Shown here one piece after another: positions 1,593 to 9,248 of a DNA stretch of 36,383 nucleotides. The position numbers were made by a program, and so were the translations under genes. This DNA is from Sulfobacillus sp. (GTDB lineage: Bacteria > Bacillota > Sulfobacillia > Sulfobacillales > Sulfobacillaceae). The notes under the pieces are model-generated. The model was given only the letters and a program-made list of their open reading frames with translations, searched no databases and was not told the origin of the DNA. Location of the stretch: positions 1-36,383 of the forward strand of contig DAIDDL010000042.1 in the NCBI GenBank assembly GCA_027309085.1, in the 5' to 3' direction. Every line of letters begins with the position of its first letter. Positions within the stretch are counted from its first letter, which is position 1.

Positions 1593-3179
1593 CTATTCTG
1601 GCCGGGACAGCAGTCCGTCTTCCAGTCTTTTCCCGTAGGGGCTCCCCCATCCCGTCACGGCGTTCCAGCCCGGGGTGCATTCATAGCCCACCACGCCCCC
1701 GTAGGAATTGTTGCCGGAGGTAATCGGGCGAAAGGCCGGAGTAGGCCCTAAATCATACAGTGCGGGATTAACATACCCCAGTACTTCCTGACTTAGACTA
1801 GCAGCCTTGCCGGCAATCCGGGCCAGCAAGGCCGCCCAGATCGGGGAGGAGCAAGACGTGCCGCCAACCACGGTCCAGGCGCCCTGGAAGAAGGCCGGAT
1901 ACCCCGTGTCCGGGTCCGCATTGAGCGCCACATCAGGCACTCCCCGGCCCGCGTGGTATCCGGCCTTGACGGGCAGTTCGATCCCCGCCTGATATGGGGG
2001 CACCGCAAATATCTGGCTGATACCGCCCCCGGATGCGCCGTTATTGTCCGTATCGGTCCATCCGGTCTCCAAAACGATCTGGTCCGCTGCATTCACAATC
2101 AGGTGGGTGCCTCCCACCGCAACCGCATGCGGGCAGTTCGCCGGCGCGTCCACATGGCAGATCAGGCGTCCGGGACCGTGCAGGCCATAGGCCCCCTCAT
2201 CACCGGAAGCCACAAAGACCGTCATGCCGATGGCTGCGCTGTTGCGGATGACACTGTCCCAAGCCCGCATGGTGGCCACAGGGAAGCGGGTCTCCCCGTC
2301 TCCGTAGCTGATGGACAAAATATCTGGACAATTCGTGGCATCCTGGTACGCGTAGTCGAGAGCCTTCAGCACAGACAGGCCAAAAGAGCTGTCCTGGCTC
2401 CCGGCACTGGCTTCATACACCACCAGGGAGGCCTCGGGCGCCACTGCCCCGCACCACTCCACATCCAAAGTGGCTTCCAGATCCCAGGGATTCACCCCGC
2501 CGTCATTGGATGTGCCGTCCACCGACACAAACGTCAGGCTGGGAGCGGGGATGGCAAACTGGTCCCAAAAGGCCTCTAGGTCTTTGGCATTATAGCCATT
2601 GGAAAACTCCAGCAGCCCTATCGTCAGCCCCGCGCCCAGTCCCTTTGGAAATTGGTACGCCCTCACAATGTCCGCCGGGAAAAAACCCTGCCCATTGTTG
2701 GCCAGCTGGTCCATCCGCTCCGGCGGGCGGTAGTGGGGATACAGCCTTGAGACATTTTCCAGCCCGACAAATCCGACAATGGCGGGGTGCAGCCAATCCG
2801 GAACCTGGGGCTCCTGGGCCATCATGAAATGGCCATCCTTTTCAACAAACCGCGTCCCCAAAGTCTGTTCAATTTGGTCCATCCGGCCTGCGAGCCACAA
2901 GATAAAGGGGCCGGTTTTGACCACCTGCAAACCGCCCTGCGTGAGCCACTTCCCCGCCCGCTCTTTGAGAGCCTGGTCCCAAGTGAATGCTTGCGCAAAG
3001 GCCTCCCGGCTCAGGGATGGCTTTCGGGCCAGCAGCCGTTCTTCAAGCGTATCGTCCTGCGGCGTTCTCCACACCAGGGCGAACTCTACCCGGCGGCTGG
3101 GATCTTGCCGCTCTCGGTACTGCGCCAGATCTTCTTCGGGCAGCAGATGGCCCCGCACTGCTTCCAGCTTTTCCGCCAT
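1593..3179 (-). CDS. S53 family serine-carboxyl peptidase (kumamolisin/sedolisin type)
   Basis: This 528-residue protein has an N-terminal pro-kumamolisin-like activation domain (about 1–150) and an S53 catalytic domain (about 165–525). Catalytic residues are visible: E235 and D239 in EATLD, oxyanion D327 in SGDEG, and S442 in GGTSCSSP. Further family segments are GRGVPDVALNADPDTGY (about 411–427) and the C-terminal GWNAVTGWGSP next to the calcium site. S53 enzymes are endopeptidases active at low pH. There is no recognisable signal peptide; kumamolisin precursors of related bacilli likewise begin with a charged propeptide, so export may be non-classical. The ATG at 3179 follows AAAGGAGG at good spacing. 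The gene lies downstream of a zinc-ribbon gene on the same strand. Confidence 0.92.
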   Translation of the reverse strand: MAEKLEAVRGHLLPEEDLAQYRERQDPSRRVEFALVWRTPQDDTLEERLLARKPSLSREAFAQAFTWDQALKERAGKWLTQGGLQVVKTGPFILWLAGRMDQIEQTLGTRFVEKDGHFMMAQEPQVPDWLHPAIVGFVGLENVSRLYPHYRPPERMDQLANNGQGFFPADIVRAYQFPKGLGAGLTIGLLEFSNGYNAKDLEAFWDQFAIPAPSLTFVSVDGTSNDGGVNPWDLEATLDVEWCGAVAPEASLVVYEASAGSQDSSFGLSVLKALDYAYQDATNCPDILSISYGDGETRFPVATMRAWDSVIRNSAAIGMTVFVASGDEGAYGLHGPGRLICHVDAPANCPHAVAVGGTHLIVNAADQIVLETGWTDTDNNGASGGGISQIFAVPPYQAGIELPVKAGYHAGRGVPDVALNADPDTGYPAFFQGAWTVVGGTSCSSPIWAALLARIAGKAASLSQEVLGYVNPALYDLGPTPAFRPITSGNNSYGGVVGYECTPGWNAVTGWGSPYGKRLEDGLLSRPE

Positions 3180-3215
3180 ACCAATCGTCCTCCTTTGGAT
3201 CCATCTTATGACATT

Positions 3216-3683
3216 TTAGCGGGAAATGCCCCAAGGTGTCAGGTGGTGGACGGTGGACAGCATGCAAGTTGGGCAGAGCACACTGACTTCGACCTCGCCC
3301 CGCGAATCCGGAGGCAGCGCATTGGCCAACCCTTCGAGCACCTCTCCTGCCGGGACCATCTGTCCACATGCACCGCACCGTCTGAGGGTCACGGGCCAAG
3401 GTTCGGCAGGATCCGGCCACGCACTGGGGATATCACCGGCTTCCACCACAACGGTGCCTTGCAGGTCGCCCCGGTCCCGGCGTTTGGCGATGGCGTCCCG
3501 CCCAATTTTCTCCATCAGGGTGATTTCAGCAGAAAACGGGTCCTGACGGGTGATCTGCACCCACAGCGACCGGGGAATCACCACGGACACCATAGCGGAG
3601 GTGTCGCCAAGGCGCACAGAAAATATGCTCCAGGGCCCCTCTGGCGCGTCTCCAATTACATGAAGCAGTTCAATGTCATCCAT
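3216..3683 (-). CDS. Conserved-looking zinc-ribbon protein of unknown function
   Basis: This 155-residue soluble protein has no family I recognise. Residues 1–95 look like a mixed alpha/beta domain. The C-terminal part has two CxxC pairs, CGAC (C103, C106) and CPTC (C137, C140), separated by 30 residues, consistent with one zinc ribbon. No membrane segment or signal peptide is seen. The ATG at 3683 is preceded by GGAAGGAG at normal spacing, which supports a real gene. It ends 36 bp before the S53 peptidase on the same strand, so the two may be co-transcribed. The right end of the complete IscB element lies about 50 bp upstream of its start. Function unknown. Confidence 0.7.
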   Translation of the reverse strand: MDDIELLHVIGDAPEGPWSIFSVRLGDTSAMVSVVIPRSLWVQITRQDPFSAEITLMEKIGRDAIAKRRDRGDLQGTVVVEAGDIPSAWPDPAEPWPVTLRRCGACGQMVPAGEVLEGLANALPPDSRGEVEVSVLCPTCMLSTVHHLTPWGISR

Positions 3684-3730
3684 TTCGGCACTCCTTCCCG
3701 CGCAGTCCCAGCCTGCCCTTCACCAAATGC

Positions 3731-3768
3731 CCGCGAGAATCCCCCGGCTTTAGCCGTGGGGAGGGAAG
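3731..3768 (-). mobile_element. Right-end hairpin of the complete IscB element
   Basis: Read on the minus strand just after the iscB stop, CCCTCCCC leads into CCCC-A-CGGC TAAA GCCG-GGGG (3761–3741, an 8-bp stem with a bulged A) and then ATTCTCGCGGG. This matches the right-end pattern of the first IscB element at 131–162. The 21 bases 3741–3761 recur identically at 5296–5316. Confidence 0.65.
3741..3761. repeat. 21-bp perfect direct repeat, copy 1 (iscB 3' side)
   Basis: The 21 bases here are identical, in the same orientation, to 5296–5316. The sequence is hairpin-forming (GGCTTTAGCC core). One copy lies after the iscB stop codon and the other in the upstream RNA region, so they bracket the locus. 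Confidence 0.9.
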
Positions 3769-3779
3769 CGGGCCGCCCG

Positions 3780-5003
3780 TTAGGCAGAAGTCATTTTAGC
3801 CTCGTACTGCCACCCATCCTGGCGTTGAAGTACACGACAATACTTGTACGAGATTCCCTGAGCCATGCGTTGACCATGGGCCGCAATGTCCAAACGCCCA
3901 CTAGCTCTGACCAAGATGCGCCCCACCCAGGTCCCAGCATACTTCCCTCGGAGCACTACCGCCTTGACAAGATCCCCGGTCTGGAAGCCAAAATGCATCT
4001 TCTTGCGAGACCGGTGAGCCACGGGAAAGCCATAGGCGTTCGTGCGACACATTTGACGAGTCCCACGCCCCTTGGCCGTCCAGACCTGCACCATTGGCAC
4101 AAGCGAAGCGAACTGATCGGGTGTGCTTTTGCCGACACAGAGGGCATCAAAATAATGTTCTTTGGGGAGCCCGCACGCGGTCCGTTGTTTCTTGGTGCGC
4201 CTCGCATTCATGAAGGCCGCATCTTGCAACGGCTTACGGGCCTGTGCTTGGATGTCGGGGTAGCCAAATTCTTCAGCGGTGCGGTTGTCTTTCGTGGCAT
4301 TGCACTCATGGCAAGCCATGGCGAGGTTGCTAATGCGGCTACTCCCTCGGCGATTTTTGGGCACAATGTGTTCCACTTCGAGAGGCACCTGCGTTTGCCC
4401 ACAATACGCACACGCCCGATGCCATTTTTCCAGCAGATATTCGCGGACTTCATAACCTAAGAGCGTCCCCTGTTGATACTCCACCCCGGAAATTTCGGGA
4501 TCCTGCATCTTTTGCGTGTCAAACGCCACGTGCTCCACGCTCAGAGCCGTAATCGGAGCCAGCCGGCACATCTTAGCGACGACATGCACGGTTTGATTGA
4601 CGCGGGCTGTCAGAGACGGAGGCAACCATCCTTCCGGGCGCCGGCGATTTTGAAATTGGGCAGGGCGGTACCGGGTCTGGCGCTGGCGACGCCCCCGCCG
4701 CACGGTCCGGCGGGCATCCAGTTTCGCCTTGATCCCCACCTTATGCACGATCTCCCCGAAGAAAATGGCTTTAGCACCGAGGGCTCCCTCCAACAGTAGG
4801 GCACTCCCGGTGGTCTTCGATCCGGGATCGAGTTTCAACCGCAAGGGTTGGAACACCGAATCCTCGGCGCGGCGATCTTTCAGCCGAATCGTGAAGGGAG
4901 CCATCTTATGCACGACCGCTCGATGACGTTTCAAAAGCAATCGTGCTCGTTTTTCAGTACACGGCATCAGGGGTTTCTTGTGCTGGTCTAAAACAAAAAC
5001 CAT
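3780..5003 (-). CDS. iscB: IscB, RNA-guided HNH/RuvC endonuclease (apparently complete)
   Basis: This 407-residue protein carries every IscB hallmark in order: the N-terminal PLMP motif at 11–14, RuvC-I LKLDPGSKTTG (D59), an arginine-rich bridge helix (about 97–122), RuvC-II SVEHVAFD (E157), and an HNH domain with C198/C201, LEVEH (H212), N226 and CHECN (C231/C234). RuvC-III KEHYFDALCVG (H283, D286) and a C-terminal TAM-interaction region (about 310–407) follow. IscB proteins are ancestors of Cas9 and cleave double-stranded DNA using an omega RNA encoded just upstream. The ATG at 5003 is preceded by AAAGGAG at good spacing. The frame stays open further upstream (about 68 codons), but that stretch is the structured RNA region and I do not consider it coding. 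No tnpA lies next to it, so mobilisation would need a TnpA in trans. No frameshift or missing catalytic residue is seen. Confidence 0.93.
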   Translation of the reverse strand: MVFVLDQHKKPLMPCTEKRARLLLKRHRAVVHKMAPFTIRLKDRRAEDSVFQPLRLKLDPGSKTTGSALLLEGALGAKAIFFGEIVHKVGIKAKLDARRTVRRGRRQRQTRYRPAQFQNRRRPEGWLPPSLTARVNQTVHVVAKMCRLAPITALSVEHVAFDTQKMQDPEISGVEYQQGTLLGYEVREYLLEKWHRACAYCGQTQVPLEVEHIVPKNRRGSSRISNLAMACHECNATKDNRTAEEFGYPDIQAQARKPLQDAAFMNARRTKKQRTACGLPKEHYFDALCVGKSTPDQFASLVPMVQVWTAKGRGTRQMCRTNAYGFPVAHRSRKKMHFGFQTGDLVKAVVLRGKYAGTWVGRILVRASGRLDIAAHGQRMAQGISYKYCRVLQRQDGWQYEAKMTSA

Positions 5004-5021
5004 GCTGGGATCTCCTTTCCC

Positions 5022-5350
5022 TCTTACGAAGGCTGGTGACGTTTCTTGCGAAATCTCTCCTCGTCCAGGTTGGAAGGGGTCGCGTCTTCTCTCCGCACGG
5101 CTGGCAACACCCCTGCTCGCGTTTAACGGAGAACCAGAGAGCTTGAGACTGGAGAAGCATCCCAAGGTCTGCACCCAACCAACGTAGCTTGCGCTCGGAC
5201 TGGTCATAGCGCCTAGAAGTCCCCGTTAGGGGGAAGACTTTGCCTCTGAGGCTTTCTCGTCTAATGCTAAAGGCTCAGGAAACAATCACTCCAAGCCCCC
5301 GGCTTTAGCCGTGGGGTCTATGACTCTCCCATGAGACTGCGCCGGCACTT
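5022..5350 (-). ncRNA. Candidate omega RNA (HEARO RNA) of the IscB locus
   Basis: The roughly 300 bases upstream of iscB on its own strand are too structured to be ordinary leader. From 5' to 3' they contain the CCCC-A-CGGC TAAA GCCGGGG stem (5316–5296), CCTGAGCCTTTAGC with a complementary CTCAGAGG further on (about 5280–5230), and an AAGT…CCCC TAAC GGGG ACTT hairpin (about 5243–5219). A long GC-rich tail then runs to the iscB ribosome site. HEARO/omega RNAs are known to sit exactly here, with the guide at the 5' end taken from DNA flanking the element. Both ends are estimates: 5350 from the promoter and 5022 from the ribosome site. No covariance model could be run. Confidence 0.65.
5296..5316. 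repeat. 21-bp perfect direct repeat, copy 2 (first stem of the omega RNA)
   Basis: Identical to 3741–3761. On the minus strand it forms the first stem of the putative omega RNA. The flanking bases differ between copies, so identity is limited to the hairpin. Confidence 0.9.
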
Positions 5351-5502
5351 TGTTGGATTATATCACTGACCTGCAGGCCAGAAAGCGCCTGCAGGCCAAC
5401 AACGGCACTCCGCACCGGAAATTTTTAGGGGCCTGTGCGCGTGAAGTCCCTATGGAACGACACAGAGCGGCGGAGAATAGTAAAACTGCCCACTTAGGAT
5501 GA
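5334..5502 (+). pseudogene. Possible transposase remnant next to the IscB left end
   Basis: A plus-strand frame is open from 5334 to TGA at 5500–5502, reading GTLLDYITDLQARKRLQAN and then a basic tail, with no start codon or ribosome site. It looks like the C-terminal scrap of a longer protein, and the style suggests a transposase, but I cannot name a family. Homology would be lost just where the IscB element's left end is expected (about 5318–5333), as if IscB had inserted there. The remaining bases to 5644 hold no gene I can support. Confidence 0.3.
5357..5365 (-). promoter_or_regulatory. Extended –10 promoter upstream of the omega RNA
   Basis: On the minus strand the sequence reads TGATATAAT: a perfect TATAAT with the TG of an extended –10. 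The –35 (TTTCTG at 16 bp) is poor, which extended –10 promoters tolerate. Transcription would start near 5350, about 30 nt before the conserved RNA stem. The same TGATATAAT occurs before the phosphoglycosyltransferase gene. Confidence 0.55.
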
Positions 5503-5644
5503 GCCGTGGCAAACGGGGCTCATGGCGAGGTGTCATTGGCCCCTTGCCCAATCGAATCCCTCAGCTATGGAGGCGCCACCGTGGGGGGGAGCGCCGGCTG
5601 GGATATCCGGTGCGCCCCGAAACGAAATACCTACGGGCCCCGTT

Positions 5645-6607
5645 TCACATGGTGAGTACCGCCCGGAACCGCACATTCGATGACATCATGCGGTCAAAGG
5701 CTCCGGCGGCTTGATCCAGCGGGAACGTCTCGATTAAGGGATGGATATTGGCCAGCTGGCTGAAGTTGAGAGTTCCCGCAAGGTCTGCCGGGTCCGTGCC
5801 GGTAAATCCGCGGACAGCGCGGCGTCCGGCCAGAAATTGTCCCGGGGCAAACTCCAAGTTTCCCCCCATGCCTGCGACAATAATCATCTCGCCGCCTTCT
5901 CCCAGCCCGTCAAAAATTCTGGTAATGGACGCGCTGTCCGGCGCCGTGGCCAAAATCACACGCGCCCCGCCCATGCCTTTGAGTATCTGGACCGGATCTT
6001 CCGATTGGGCGTCAATATACACATGGGCACCCAATTCGAGAGCCAAACCCTTCTTATCCCCGCCGCGCGAGACGGCTACGGTCCGGAATCCAGAATTTCT
6101 GGCATACTGCAGCGCCATGTGGCCGAGTCCGCCAATCCCGAGAATGGCTACGGTGTCCCCCGGGCCCGCAACGCTGTGCTTCAACGCCCCAAATGTAGTC
6201 ACTCCGGCGCACATCAAAGGTGAGGCTTCGGCCGAGGGCAGTCCCGCTGGAATCCTGGTCATGCGGGCCGCGAATCCGATCATGTATTCCGCATATCCCC
6301 CATCATAGGTAAGGCCCGTCACTTCGTGACCGCCGCCGGACCAGCCCACCCCCACACGGTCACCCACGCTCCACTCCCCCGCCAGGGGACCGAGCTTGTC
6401 AATCACCCCGATGACTTCATGCCCGGGGATTCTGGGGTACTGCATAAGCGGGTGGTGGCCTTCAATCGCCACCAGTTCGCCATGGCAGATCCCGCAGGAC
6501 TCCACCTTGATGCGGACCTGGCCCGGACCGGGTTCAGGAACCAAACGTTCCACTAATTCCAGTGGCCCGCCCCGCCGGGCAATCTGTACAGCCTTCATCG
6601 TTTTCAT
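5645..6607 (-). CDS. Zinc-type alcohol dehydrogenase (MDR superfamily) lacking the structural-zinc loop
   Basis: This 320-residue medium-chain dehydrogenase/reductase would oxidise alcohols or reduce aldehydes with NAD(P). Catalytic zinc ligands are apparent: C38 in SCGICHGE, H63/E64 in GHE, and C133 in LMCAGVTT. The Rossmann motif GIGGLGH is at 157–163. The usual four-cysteine structural-zinc segment between GDRVGVGW and the GxxYDGGYAEY motif is missing. Here GDRVGVGWSGGGHEVTGLTYDGGYAEY runs straight through, about 15–20 residues short, with the frame intact. The ATG at 6607 follows GGGGAGGA; an ATG 24 bases upstream has no ribosome site. It stands alone behind the terminator of the gene to its right. 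Confidence 0.88.
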   Translation of the reverse strand: MKTMKAVQIARRGGPLELVERLVPEPGPGQVRIKVESCGICHGELVAIEGHHPLMQYPRIPGHEVIGVIDKLGPLAGEWSVGDRVGVGWSGGGHEVTGLTYDGGYAEYMIGFAARMTRIPAGLPSAEASPLMCAGVTTFGALKHSVAGPGDTVAILGIGGLGHMALQYARNSGFRTVAVSRGGDKKGLALELGAHVYIDAQSEDPVQILKGMGGARVILATAPDSASITRIFDGLGEGGEMIIVAGMGGNLEFAPGQFLAGRRAVRGFTGTDPADLAGTLNFSQLANIHPLIETFPLDQAAGAFDRMMSSNVRFRAVLTM

Positions 6608-6634
6608 AAAAATCCTCCCCCTGCTGTGCACACT

Positions 6635-6662
6635 AAAAAGTCAGGCCGCATAGCGGCCTGAC
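6635..6662 (-). terminator. Rho-independent terminator after the phosphoglycosyltransferase gene
   Basis: Read on the minus strand, GTCAGGCCGC-TAT-GCGGCCTGAC is a perfect 10-bp stem followed directly by TTTTT. It separates the phosphoglycosyltransferase transcript from the downstream alcohol dehydrogenase. Confidence 0.9.
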
Positions 6663-6687
6663 GGATCTTCTTACTGATGAAACCCCA

Positions 6688-8097
6688 TCAGTGCGCGCCC
6701 CTTTGCTGCAGCACCGCAGGAATCGTCTTGAACAGGATCTTGAAGTCCAGACCCAGCGACCAGGAATCAATATATTCCATGTCGAGCTGCATCCACTGTT
6801 CGAAATCAATGTCATTGCGTCCTGAAATTTGCCACAAGCAGGTGATGCCGGGCCGGACTGACAGCCGCTTGCGGTAGTCCTCGCCGTAGCGCTCCACCTC
6901 CGCTGGCAAGGCCGGGCGCGGGCCCACCATGCTCATGTGGCCTGCGAGCACGTTGAACAGCTGCGGCAGCTCGTCCAGGCTGGCCTTGCGCAAAAGCTTG
7001 CCCATCCGGGTTACGCGCGGATCATCCGGCACTTTGAACACGGGGCCGCTCATCACATTCAGGTGTTCAATCTGGGCCCGCAACTCTTCCGCATTGGGCA
7101 CCATGGTGCGGAATTTATAGCAGGGAAATTCGCGGCCATTGAGGCCTACCCGGGGCTGCACAAAAAAAACGGGGCCGGCCGGGTCGTCCAGCTTAATCAG
7201 AAGAGCGATCAGCGCCATCACGGGCACCGCCACAATGATGCTGCCGGCAGACAGGATCATGTCCACCAGCCGTTTCGCGGCCCGGCGCGCGGACTGCTGG
7301 GAGCGGCTGGCATTCACAACCAGCACCGAGTTGCCATAAAAGTCGTACAGCGTGGACTTGTAGGCGAACGCCCCCACCTCATCAAGAATCATGCGCACTT
7401 CCTTGCCTTGGTTGCGGGCCATCCCCACCGCTTCCATCATCACATCGTCTGCCACCGGCAAGGCCAGCACCACCGTATCCACCACCGTGGAGTGCAGGAG
7501 CTGGCGCAATGTCGCAAGGGCCTTATGGCCCGCGTCCGACGAACCCAGAGGAATTTCCAGACGGTCCACCACCACCATGCCCGCTTCCGGAACGGTATCC
7601 ACGGTCTGGGAAAATATCCTGACCCGCTTGGGATAGCCGATGACGACCAGTCGGCGCAGATCTTTTTTACCCAGCCGCAGGCGGTTGGTGCCCACTTTGG
7701 TCACAATATGGATCCCTAGCTGAAGCGCCAGAGCCATCAACGGCATCAGCATGAAAATCAAGCGCGAAAACCAGGTGGCTTTCACAAAGAAAATAAGGAG
7801 AGCCATGGCCAGAGTGCTTTCCAGATTGGATACCACCAGCATTTTCATTTCGGATGGCAATTGATTCCACCGTCTGGAATATCCTTTGAAATTAAACTTC
7901 AATACCACCCAGTTCAGCGCCAGTAAAACGGGAGAAAACGAAAAATACAGGGTCACAAGCTGCACGGTCGCCACATAAGGGTTAATCCATGTCAGATACA
8001 CGTGCACCGCCAGCAGGTACGCGAGATAAGCCGCTCCGGTATCCACCAGCACCGCCAGCTCATCCCATCTATTGGTCCAGTGTTTGAACACATTCAC
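6688..8097 (-). CDS. Exopolysaccharide polyprenyl glycosyl-1-phosphate transferase (WbaP/CpsE type)
   Basis: This 469-residue membrane protein should transfer a sugar-1-phosphate from a nucleotide sugar to undecaprenyl phosphate, the first committed step in building a polysaccharide repeat unit. The N-terminal part has four to five hydrophobic segments (about 14–135). A central CoA-binding-like domain follows (about 145–260, starting RRLVVIGYPKR). The catalytic PGT domain begins after a membrane helix at about 278–302 and holds KFRTM (328–332), SLDELPQL (D375, E376), VGPRPALPAEVERY and PGITCLWQISGRN. The start is taken as GTG at 8097. An extended –10 promoter lies close upstream, giving a very short leader. 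Confidence 0.92.
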   Translation of the reverse strand: MNVFKHWTNRWDELAVLVDTGAAYLAYLLAVHVYLTWINPYVATVQLVTLYFSFSPVLLALNWVVLKFNFKGYSRRWNQLPSEMKMLVVSNLESTLAMALLIFFVKATWFSRLIFMLMPLMALALQLGIHIVTKVGTNRLRLGKKDLRRLVVIGYPKRVRIFSQTVDTVPEAGMVVVDRLEIPLGSSDAGHKALATLRQLLHSTVVDTVVLALPVADDVMMEAVGMARNQGKEVRMILDEVGAFAYKSTLYDFYGNSVLVVNASRSQQSARRAAKRLVDMILSAGSIIVAVPVMALIALLIKLDDPAGPVFFVQPRVGLNGREFPCYKFRTMVPNAEELRAQIEHLNVMSGPVFKVPDDPRVTRMGKLLRKASLDELPQLFNVLAGHMSMVGPRPALPAEVERYGEDYRKRLSVRPGITCLWQISGRNDIDFEQWMQLDMEYIDSWSLGLDFKILFKTIPAVLQQRGAH

Positions 8098-8117
8098 ACC
8101 CCATTTTCAATACCTTC

Positions 8118-8126
8118 ATTATATCA
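8118..8126 (-). promoter_or_regulatory. Extended –10 promoter of the phosphoglycosyltransferase gene
   Basis: The minus strand reads TGATATAAT, with TTTCAA 16 bp upstream as a weak –35. Predicted initiation near 8111 leaves only about 14 nt before the GTG start. Confidence 0.55.
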
Positions 8127-8168
8127 GGTACTGGCGCAATTGAAACCGGCGGATTATGGAACCACGGG

Positions 8169-9248
8169 CTACTGCATCTGCAGCTGAAAGGGATTCTGAG
8201 CCGAATGGGAATTGGGCACCACTTCAATCCATGTCTGGCCGGGAACAAAGCGCGCCGGCTGGCCATTGCTCAAATAATACTGGGTCGGCTGGCCCGAGCC
8301 GGCATTTTTCCATGTGCCCTGCTCGATCTTGTTGCCCAAAATCAGAGTGGCGCGGCCGCTGCCGTGCGTCTGGATTTGAATCCAGCCCGTGCCTGCCGGG
8401 TCCGGCAAGTGTTCCTCTTTGGTGTACTGAATCACAATATTGGACGCTACCACCGGTTTGCCGCTGTTCAGTCCCATCACCTGCGTATATTGGTTGCCGG
8501 AACACTCCGGACAGGAGACCCACCGGGTCCAGCCGCGCGCCGCCCCGTCCCAGCGCCACTGTTCCACGGTGTTATGGGTATTCCACGTCATGGTGATGGT
8601 CTGGTCTTGGGGAGCAGCGGATCCCGCTGGAGCGCCGAACAGCCAGTGGGGCGAAATCTTGGGGTTGCCCCAGTGGTCCTGAGCCATCAGAGCCGCCTGC
8701 GGGATGCGGACAAACAAATTGTGCGGCGCCGGCCGGGACGGCGACCGGTATCCCAAGCCGTAGGCATTGGCATCTACGTCCAGATTGTGGATGTGGTCCT
8801 GCTGAATGCTGACATATCCCGGATTAGAGGCTCCCGCGTGCACATAAGCCGCTCCCGGCCAGCCGTGCACCCAGCTGACAAAATAGGGCCGGGCGGAACG
8901 CACGGGCCCGACTTTATCCGGCTCATTGCCGTAATAAAGCAGCAGGAACCGGGAATAATAGAAGAATTCGGTATACGCTTCATAGACAACGTCGGCTGAC
9001 TCCAGCCCATACTGCGGCCGGCCGTATTCGGTGTTTTCCACCATGATTGCCACAAGCGGGCCATGATAGCGGCTAGACAGCCCCGTCAGGGGATCCGCAT
9101 TCTTCGCCAGGGCTGTCTTCGCCGCCTGAGGCGCCGCCGGTGTGGAGCGCTTGGGGTGCGCGGGGGCCGCCGCTTTATTGCTTCCGCACCCAGCCAGCAC
9201 GGTGGCGGTGCCCAGGACCAGAGCCGCCAATCCTAATATTTTCGCCAT
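8169..9248 (-). CDS. DUF3048 (YerB-like) lipoprotein
   Basis: This 359-residue exported lipoprotein has a signal peptide MAKILGLAALVLGTATVLAGC with the lipobox cysteine at 21, then an Ala/Pro/Lys linker and a globular domain starting DPLTGL. The segments PLVAIMVENTEYGRPQYGLESADVVYE, VGPVRSARPYF and AYVHAGASN are typical of DUF3048 proteins such as B. subtilis YerB, whose biochemical role is not established. The ATG at 9248 follows GGAGG; longer in-frame starts upstream would bury the lipobox and are rejected. It is divergent from the flavoprotein at 9415 and is followed by the phosphoglycosyltransferase gene, which has its own promoter. Confidence 0.87.
   Translation of the reverse strand: MAKILGLAALVLGTATVLAGCGSNKAAAPAHPKRSTPAAPQAAKTALAKNADPLTGLSSRYHGPLVAIMVENTEYGRPQYGLESADVVYEAYTEFFYYSRFLLLYYGNEPDKVGPVRSARPYFVSWVHGWPGAAYVHAGASNPGYVSIQQDHIHNLDVDANAYGLGYRSPSRPAPHNLFVRIPQAALMAQDHWGNPKISPHWLFGAPAGSAAPQDQTITMTWNTHNTVEQWRWDGAARGWTRWVSCPECSGNQYTQVMGLNSGKPVVASNIVIQYTKEEHLPDPAGTGWIQIQTHGSGRATLILGNKIEQGTWKNAGSGQPTQYYLSNGQPARFVPGQTWIEVVPNSHSAQNPFQLQMQ

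Follow-up and report, generated by a model that had tools for sequence, protein, structure and literature searches.

Placement of HEARO/IscB elements in Sulfobacillaceae: sense orientation behind host genes and, in one subtype, frequent docking at start codons

Introduction

The closest described relative of the element considered here is the HEARO RNA (RF02033)/IscB (OMEGA) system, with which it shares the RNA fold, the nuclease family and the position of the RNA upstream of the open reading frame, and from which a guide taken from the left flank is expected. The HEARO target motif is of the ATGA/GTGA type, the same as in the family studied here. In itself the element is no different from known HEARO/IscB elements; what is added concerns the placement of the copies, which lie in sense within host transcription units and, in the subtype called type B below, often at start codons. 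TnpB (IS200/IS605) is likewise mobile and RNA-guided and also uses flanking DNA as its guide. The TnpB guide is located at the 3' end, so no promoter outside the element is needed.

IsrB nickases use a HEARO-like omega RNA and form a guide-target duplex of 20 nt, and their TAMs, measured in vitro, are NTGA, NTG and NTGG (PMC9581776). These TAMs coincide with the letters of start codons, and the term "start codon" has 0 occurrences in that paper. The window protein features an HNH domain, which IsrB lacks. No account of start-codon docking or of a sense bias of IscB/HEARO was found among titles, abstract openings and passages of PMC9581776 and PMC9755519, and the same portions of the literature do not address the transcription of 5' IscB guides. 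A dependence of HEARO/IscB on host promoters is apparently undescribed.

Materials and Methods

The window is a stretch of 36,383 nucleotides of Sulfobacillus sp., contig C109 of a 4.49-Mb genome. Across the 34 family genomes, RF02033 has 149 matches, spread over 25 genomes; the window's genome accounts for 12 of these matches. The best 100 of the 149 matches were sampled, and copies with shared flanks (L143, L163, L161, L164), uncertain starts (L190, L198, L171) or fewer than 560 bases of upstream flank (L133, L159) were left out, which gave 91 unique upstream flanks for motif counts. Type A, the window's subtype, starts with GTCATAGA and comprises 25 of these copies, while the sister subtype, type B, starts with GTCAAC and comprises 66. 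The right end could be placed in 50 copies (49 unique), mostly by eye. A set from other Bacillota, scored on its upstream flanks, held 40 copies, of which L266 was omitted as a duplicate of L265, leaving 39.

A -10 box was counted when at least 5 of 6 positions matched and the box started 26-65 nt before the element; the Shine-Dalgarno test used 5-mers 9-17 nt before the element. Host strand was called by background-corrected codon usage with a margin of at least 10, a procedure that was correct on 33/33 segments of window genes. It required 360 bases of flank, a length available to the left of 25 copies of type A and 67 of type B, and it replaced an earlier caller with a fixed threshold that left most flanks undecided. 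The TnpB control consisted of 40 elements chosen from the match list in the same genomes. Control counts of RTGA sites come from the window only; a pooled control of the window and L025-L053, with 807 "intergenic" sites, was set aside, as too few genes are recognised on short loci by the crude gene caller. Transcription starts were placed 7-9 nt after the -10 hexamer.

Results

The Element and Its Host Site

The window carries an ordinary HEARO/IscB unit of a known kind, which occupies positions 5324..3724 of the minus strand (1601 bp) and lies 5' of GTGA. The omega RNA scaffold, at 5050..5324 (-), matches the full RF02033 model (93.9 bits against a cut-off of 83, E 4e-18) and lies directly upstream of the iscB reading frame. 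GTCA at 5324 opens the outer stem at position 1 of the Rfam HEARO model and forms the left end of the element. The original prediction had placed the first conserved RNA stem at 5316, where an inner hairpin is found instead. The iscB gene at 3780..5003 (-) encodes 407 amino acids with RRXRR (PF14239, 3.1e-66) and HNH (PF01844, 6.4e-11) domains, scores 377.7 bits against the NCBIfam guided_IscB model NF040563 (cut-off 175), and is preceded, within the element, by the Shine-Dalgarno sequence AAGGAG at 5012..5017 (-), read from the sequence. The right end is a hairpin with a tail closing in GCGGGCATTTG (3724..3763, minus strand, 40 nt), and the GTGA target motif, the presumed TAM, follows directly at 3720..3723 (-). 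The copy has the sharp ends, unrelated flanks and fixed target motif (GTGA) of a mobile element. It has no tnpA of its own; five PF01797 matches elsewhere in the genome make Y1 transposase available, which may mobilise it.

The start codon of ORF155 (3216..3683, minus strand) follows the element at a distance of 40 nt. This unnamed host gene has no match in Pfam and NCBIfam searches and is conserved in the family, with matches in 32 of 34 genomes, although identity outside its own genome is only 49-64%. The ORF155 Shine-Dalgarno sequence AAGGAG (3696-3691) is intact between element and start codon. On the other side, a zinc-type alcohol dehydrogenase gene (5645..6598, minus strand) and, further upstream, a sugar-transferase gene share the strand of the element. 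The roughly 320 nt between dehydrogenase and element are non-coding and include a weak terminator-like hairpin at 5504-5488 (-), of a sort as frequent in shuffled sequence. In five genomes of the same genus (G002, G003, G004, G005 and G007) ORF155 comes straight after the sugar-transferase gene, with neither dehydrogenase nor IscB in between, and in three of them (G002, G003 and G005) a -35/-10-like pair, TTGCAT and TATGAT or TAAAAT at a spacing of 17 nt, was seen by eye ahead of ORF155. Compared with these pairs, the window -10 lacks TTGCAT and is further from ORF155, and orthology is not demonstrable.

No empty site was found for the window copy, whose upstream flank has no same-genus match among 101 genomes. 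For L132 (G003) an empty-site comparison was partly successful: the homologous gene in G007 is free of the element and has GAGGTGA shortly before its start codon. At the same start codon as L132, an apparent IscB element tail was noticed by eye in another species (L240, G002:C2 near 330377), which looks like a deleted remnant of a decayed insertion common to the two species.

An Extended -10 Motif in the Host Flank

The sequence TGATATAAT, an extended -10 motif of the sigma-70 form TGnTATAAT, is present on the iscB strand at 5365-5357 (hexamer 5362-5357), as originally described, and it lies outside the element. That it belongs to host DNA, as had also been claimed, is borne out by the 25 type A copies, in which conservation begins abruptly at 5324: the first element base carries 1.91 bits, while each of the 45 bases upstream carries -0.08 to 0.25 bits. 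When the copies were checked for a shared motif, TGATATAAT was not conserved among these 25. A promoter as a component of the element is thus ruled out, since the 25 type A copies have no conserved base upstream of 5324.

A consensus scan of 3000-9000 gave no -35/-10 pair at TGATATAAT, so the motif is possible only as an extended -10 type. Two copies of the pattern TGNTATAAT are present in the window, where 0.20 would be expected, and 1 of 100 shuffles reached this count. Genome-wide there are 118 matches and 58 with a reversed-pattern control, an approximately twofold excess, so that chance would account for roughly half of these sites. The second occurrence of TGATATAAT in the window, at 8118-8126 (-), precedes the sugar-transferase gene, which starts with GTG at 8097, by about 20 nt.

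From the spacing to the hexamer, transcription would start at 5350-5348, and the predicted leader, the putative guide, would cover up to 5325..5350 (-), with the 26 nt form arising from a start at the 7th nt. A leader of about 30 nt of mostly flanking DNA had been foreseen; the predicted 24-26 nt are indeed guide-sized, next to the 20 nt of the duplex in the IsrB structure (PMC9581776), but all rather than most of them are flanking host DNA. The 18 nt adjoining the element, together with RTGA, match the genome at their own locus alone when up to 3 mismatches are allowed. Folding of the leader with the scaffold RNA was uninformative (z 0.18).

Directly upstream of the -10 lie two CCTGCAGG palindromes (5370-5377 and 5388-5395), 18 bp apart. 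Searched post hoc, CCTGCAGG-N5..30-TATAAT has only two occurrences genome-wide, both directly upstream of HEARO copies (the window and G000:C126), with 71 and 70 nt, respectively, from the CCTGCAGG start to the element. GGCCTGCAGGC alone is found in 12 places, mostly not promoter-like by eye.

Orientation Relative to Host Genes

Copies of the element lie overwhelmingly in sense with the host DNA around them. Upstream flanks are sense to antisense 19:1 for type A and 31:3 for type B (50:4 for the family), and right flanks 5:0 and 32:0, respectively (37:0 in total). The window copy is the one left-flank exception in type A; its scored segment is intergenic, and its nearest upstream gene is sense. 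The upstream flanks of the 39 copies from other Bacillota families are likewise sense (25:1). Against an assumed 75% co-orientation of genes, 37/37 has p 2e-5 and 50/54 has p 9e-4. RTGA is just slightly commoner on the sense than on the antisense strand of window genes (229:189), so the frequency of the motif is no explanation of the bias.

TnpB, which has matches in 33 of the 34 family genomes, differs in this respect: its right flanks are merely 18:9 sense, unlike the 37:0 of HEARO (Fisher p 1.7e-4), where the stretches compared are 250-550 nt past the stop for TnpB and 0-300 nt from the junction for IscB. The TnpB left-flank control was not used because it falls inside the element, as near-identical scores in the G004 copies indicate, and probably reads tnpA. 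The complete genome G004, which has no HEARO match, holds at least 16 equal-score TnpB matches on C1 (L325-L329 and others).

Promoter and Shine-Dalgarno Motifs Upstream of Copies

Of the 91 family copies, 20 have a -10 box ahead of the element, where 11 control windows average 6.45 (p 5e-6) and shuffles give 7.1; a Shine-Dalgarno sequence precedes 17, against 2.62 expected (p 1e-9). Exact TATAAT at 26-65 nt is found in 5/91 copies, and 11 equally sized control windows together hold 3. In the copies with a -10 box the predicted leader measures 15-51 nt, and in 15 of the 20 it is at most 36 nt. The source of both enrichments is type B alone, with Shine-Dalgarno sequences in 16/66 (1.94 expected) and -10 boxes in 18/66 (4.82 expected). 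Type A shows no enrichment of either (-10 box 2/25 against 1.64 expected, Shine-Dalgarno 1/25 against 0.68), and since its -10 count is at chance level, type A as a whole is not characterised by a promoter close to the element. The 39 other-Bacillota copies show none either (Shine-Dalgarno 2 against 1.80, -10 motifs 7 against 6.73), which suggests that docking may be limited to a single lineage.

Start-Codon Docking

The 49 unique resolved copies are followed by ATGA (32), GTGA (11), ATGG (4), GTGG (1) or GTAA (1). In 23 of the 49, the RTG at the junction opens a frame of at least 100 codons, and 20 of these 23 frames have a Pfam match that begins no more than 39 residues in, with the leading domain entered within the first 13 profile positions; the junction frames of L136, L141 and L210 gave no Pfam match. 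The start codon of a Pfam-recognised gene thus lies exactly at the junction in 18 of 38 type B and 2 of 11 type A copies, and at these type B junctions the target motif ATGA/ATGG is itself the start codon. Many type B copies are lodged exactly between the ribosome-binding site of a gene and its start codon. The docked genes include those for CoxG, universal stress protein, EtfB, FdhD, pyrroline-5-carboxylate reductase and prephenate dehydrogenase.

Within the window, start codons make up 13 of all 469 RTGA sites and 13 of the 51 outside gene interiors, and 18/38 exceeds both (p 2e-18 and p 0.003, respectively). A joint test for a Shine-Dalgarno sequence and a frame of at least 60 codons was positive in 18/49 copies, against 7.2% of 1006 control sites. 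Six of the nine resolved copies in the window's genome are among those docked at start codons. The window copy is not: the GTG at 3723 opens only 15 codons, and the start of ORF155 comes 40 nt further downstream.

Five short HEARO elements of 413-731 bp with intact ends (L124, L126, L146, L185 and L214, from G000, G021, G029 and G019) have no room for a full iscB, and start-codon docking is seen in some. These copies may represent guide-only elements that are served in trans.

Discussion

The general property that emerges is sense placement behind host transcription, which in type B is sharpened to the start codon. The position of the guide offers a reason. A guide that lies 5' of the scaffold means that the element cannot carry its own guide promoter and needs host transcription from the left, and copies would therefore persist in sense behind host genes, with selection for expression as the putative cause. 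Where the ATGA or ATGG of a type B target is a real start codon, as it often is, the host promoter and 5' UTR would become the guide promoter and the guide, and it is these docked copies that show the stronger arrangement, in which a resident promoter with its 5' UTR would supply the guide. We tentatively propose, as an idea that may well prove wrong, that HEARO/IscB guides depend on host promoters and that a Sulfobacillaceae-like lineage docks at start codons, where the TAM (ATGA/ATGG, GTGA) would amount to start-codon recognition, insertion would capture the promoter, the 5' UTR would serve as guide, and the nuclease would patrol the junction of Shine-Dalgarno sequence and start codon.

A serious rival for the docking pattern is survivorship. 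It is possible, if somewhat less so than this proposal, that survivorship alone gives both docking and sense orientation, copies in coding DNA having been lost and a fair share of non-coding ATGA sites being start codons. The 13 of 51 window RTGA sites outside gene interiors that are start codons speak for it, since on that basis about 25% of survivors would lie at starts in any case. The 18/38 of type B nevertheless exceeds this share and far exceeds 13/469, and a copy lodged between a Shine-Dalgarno sequence and its start codon would be expected to harm that gene. Nor does survivorship by itself predict a 37:0 sense ratio, given the 18:9 of TnpB in the same genomes.

For the window copy, the simplest interpretation places IscB within the ORF155 leader, downstream of the promoter of ORF155. 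The motif at 5365-5357 is, judged from sequence, most likely a resident host promoter, and probably the one serving ORF155; that it drives the window's system is plausible, somewhat more likely than not. The HEARO/IscB element would have entered the ORF155 leader region at a site 5' of GTGA, in sense orientation, and transcription from about 5350-5348 would then give one RNA with a host leader of 24-26 nt as guide, the omega RNA scaffold, iscB and then ORF155, on which iscB would be translated from its own Shine-Dalgarno sequence. The original prediction that a resident promoter both expresses the system and sets the guide agrees with the host origin, orientation and spacing of the motif, but as a general rule it does not extend to type A, where -10 boxes are unenriched.

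Alternatively, the dehydrogenase/sugar-transferase unit could transcribe the element by read-through, with IscB or host RNases trimming the RNA to a guide and TGATATAAT being incidental. Both upstream genes share the element's strand. Type A copies lie in sense with host DNA (19:1) while lacking a -10 close by, so a promoter within 65 nt cannot be what most of them use. For the window copy this account is nonetheless less likely, considering the non-coding gap with its weak terminator-like hairpin between dehydrogenase and element and the full extended -10 at the right place. Least probable is that TGATATAAT is no working promoter and the copy silent or weakly transcribed: the chance expectation for such sites (58 of 118), the missing -35 in the consensus scan and the unenriched type A would fit, but the position and strand of the motif, and the exact TATAAT in 5/91 family copies against 3 over all 11 control windows, argue against it.

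Taken together, orientation bias and start-codon docking lead to a simple and testable answer, namely that host promoters transcribe IscB guides. Such a dependence would explain why the TAMs of the HEARO/IscB group spell start codons, and it predicts which genomic copies are active.
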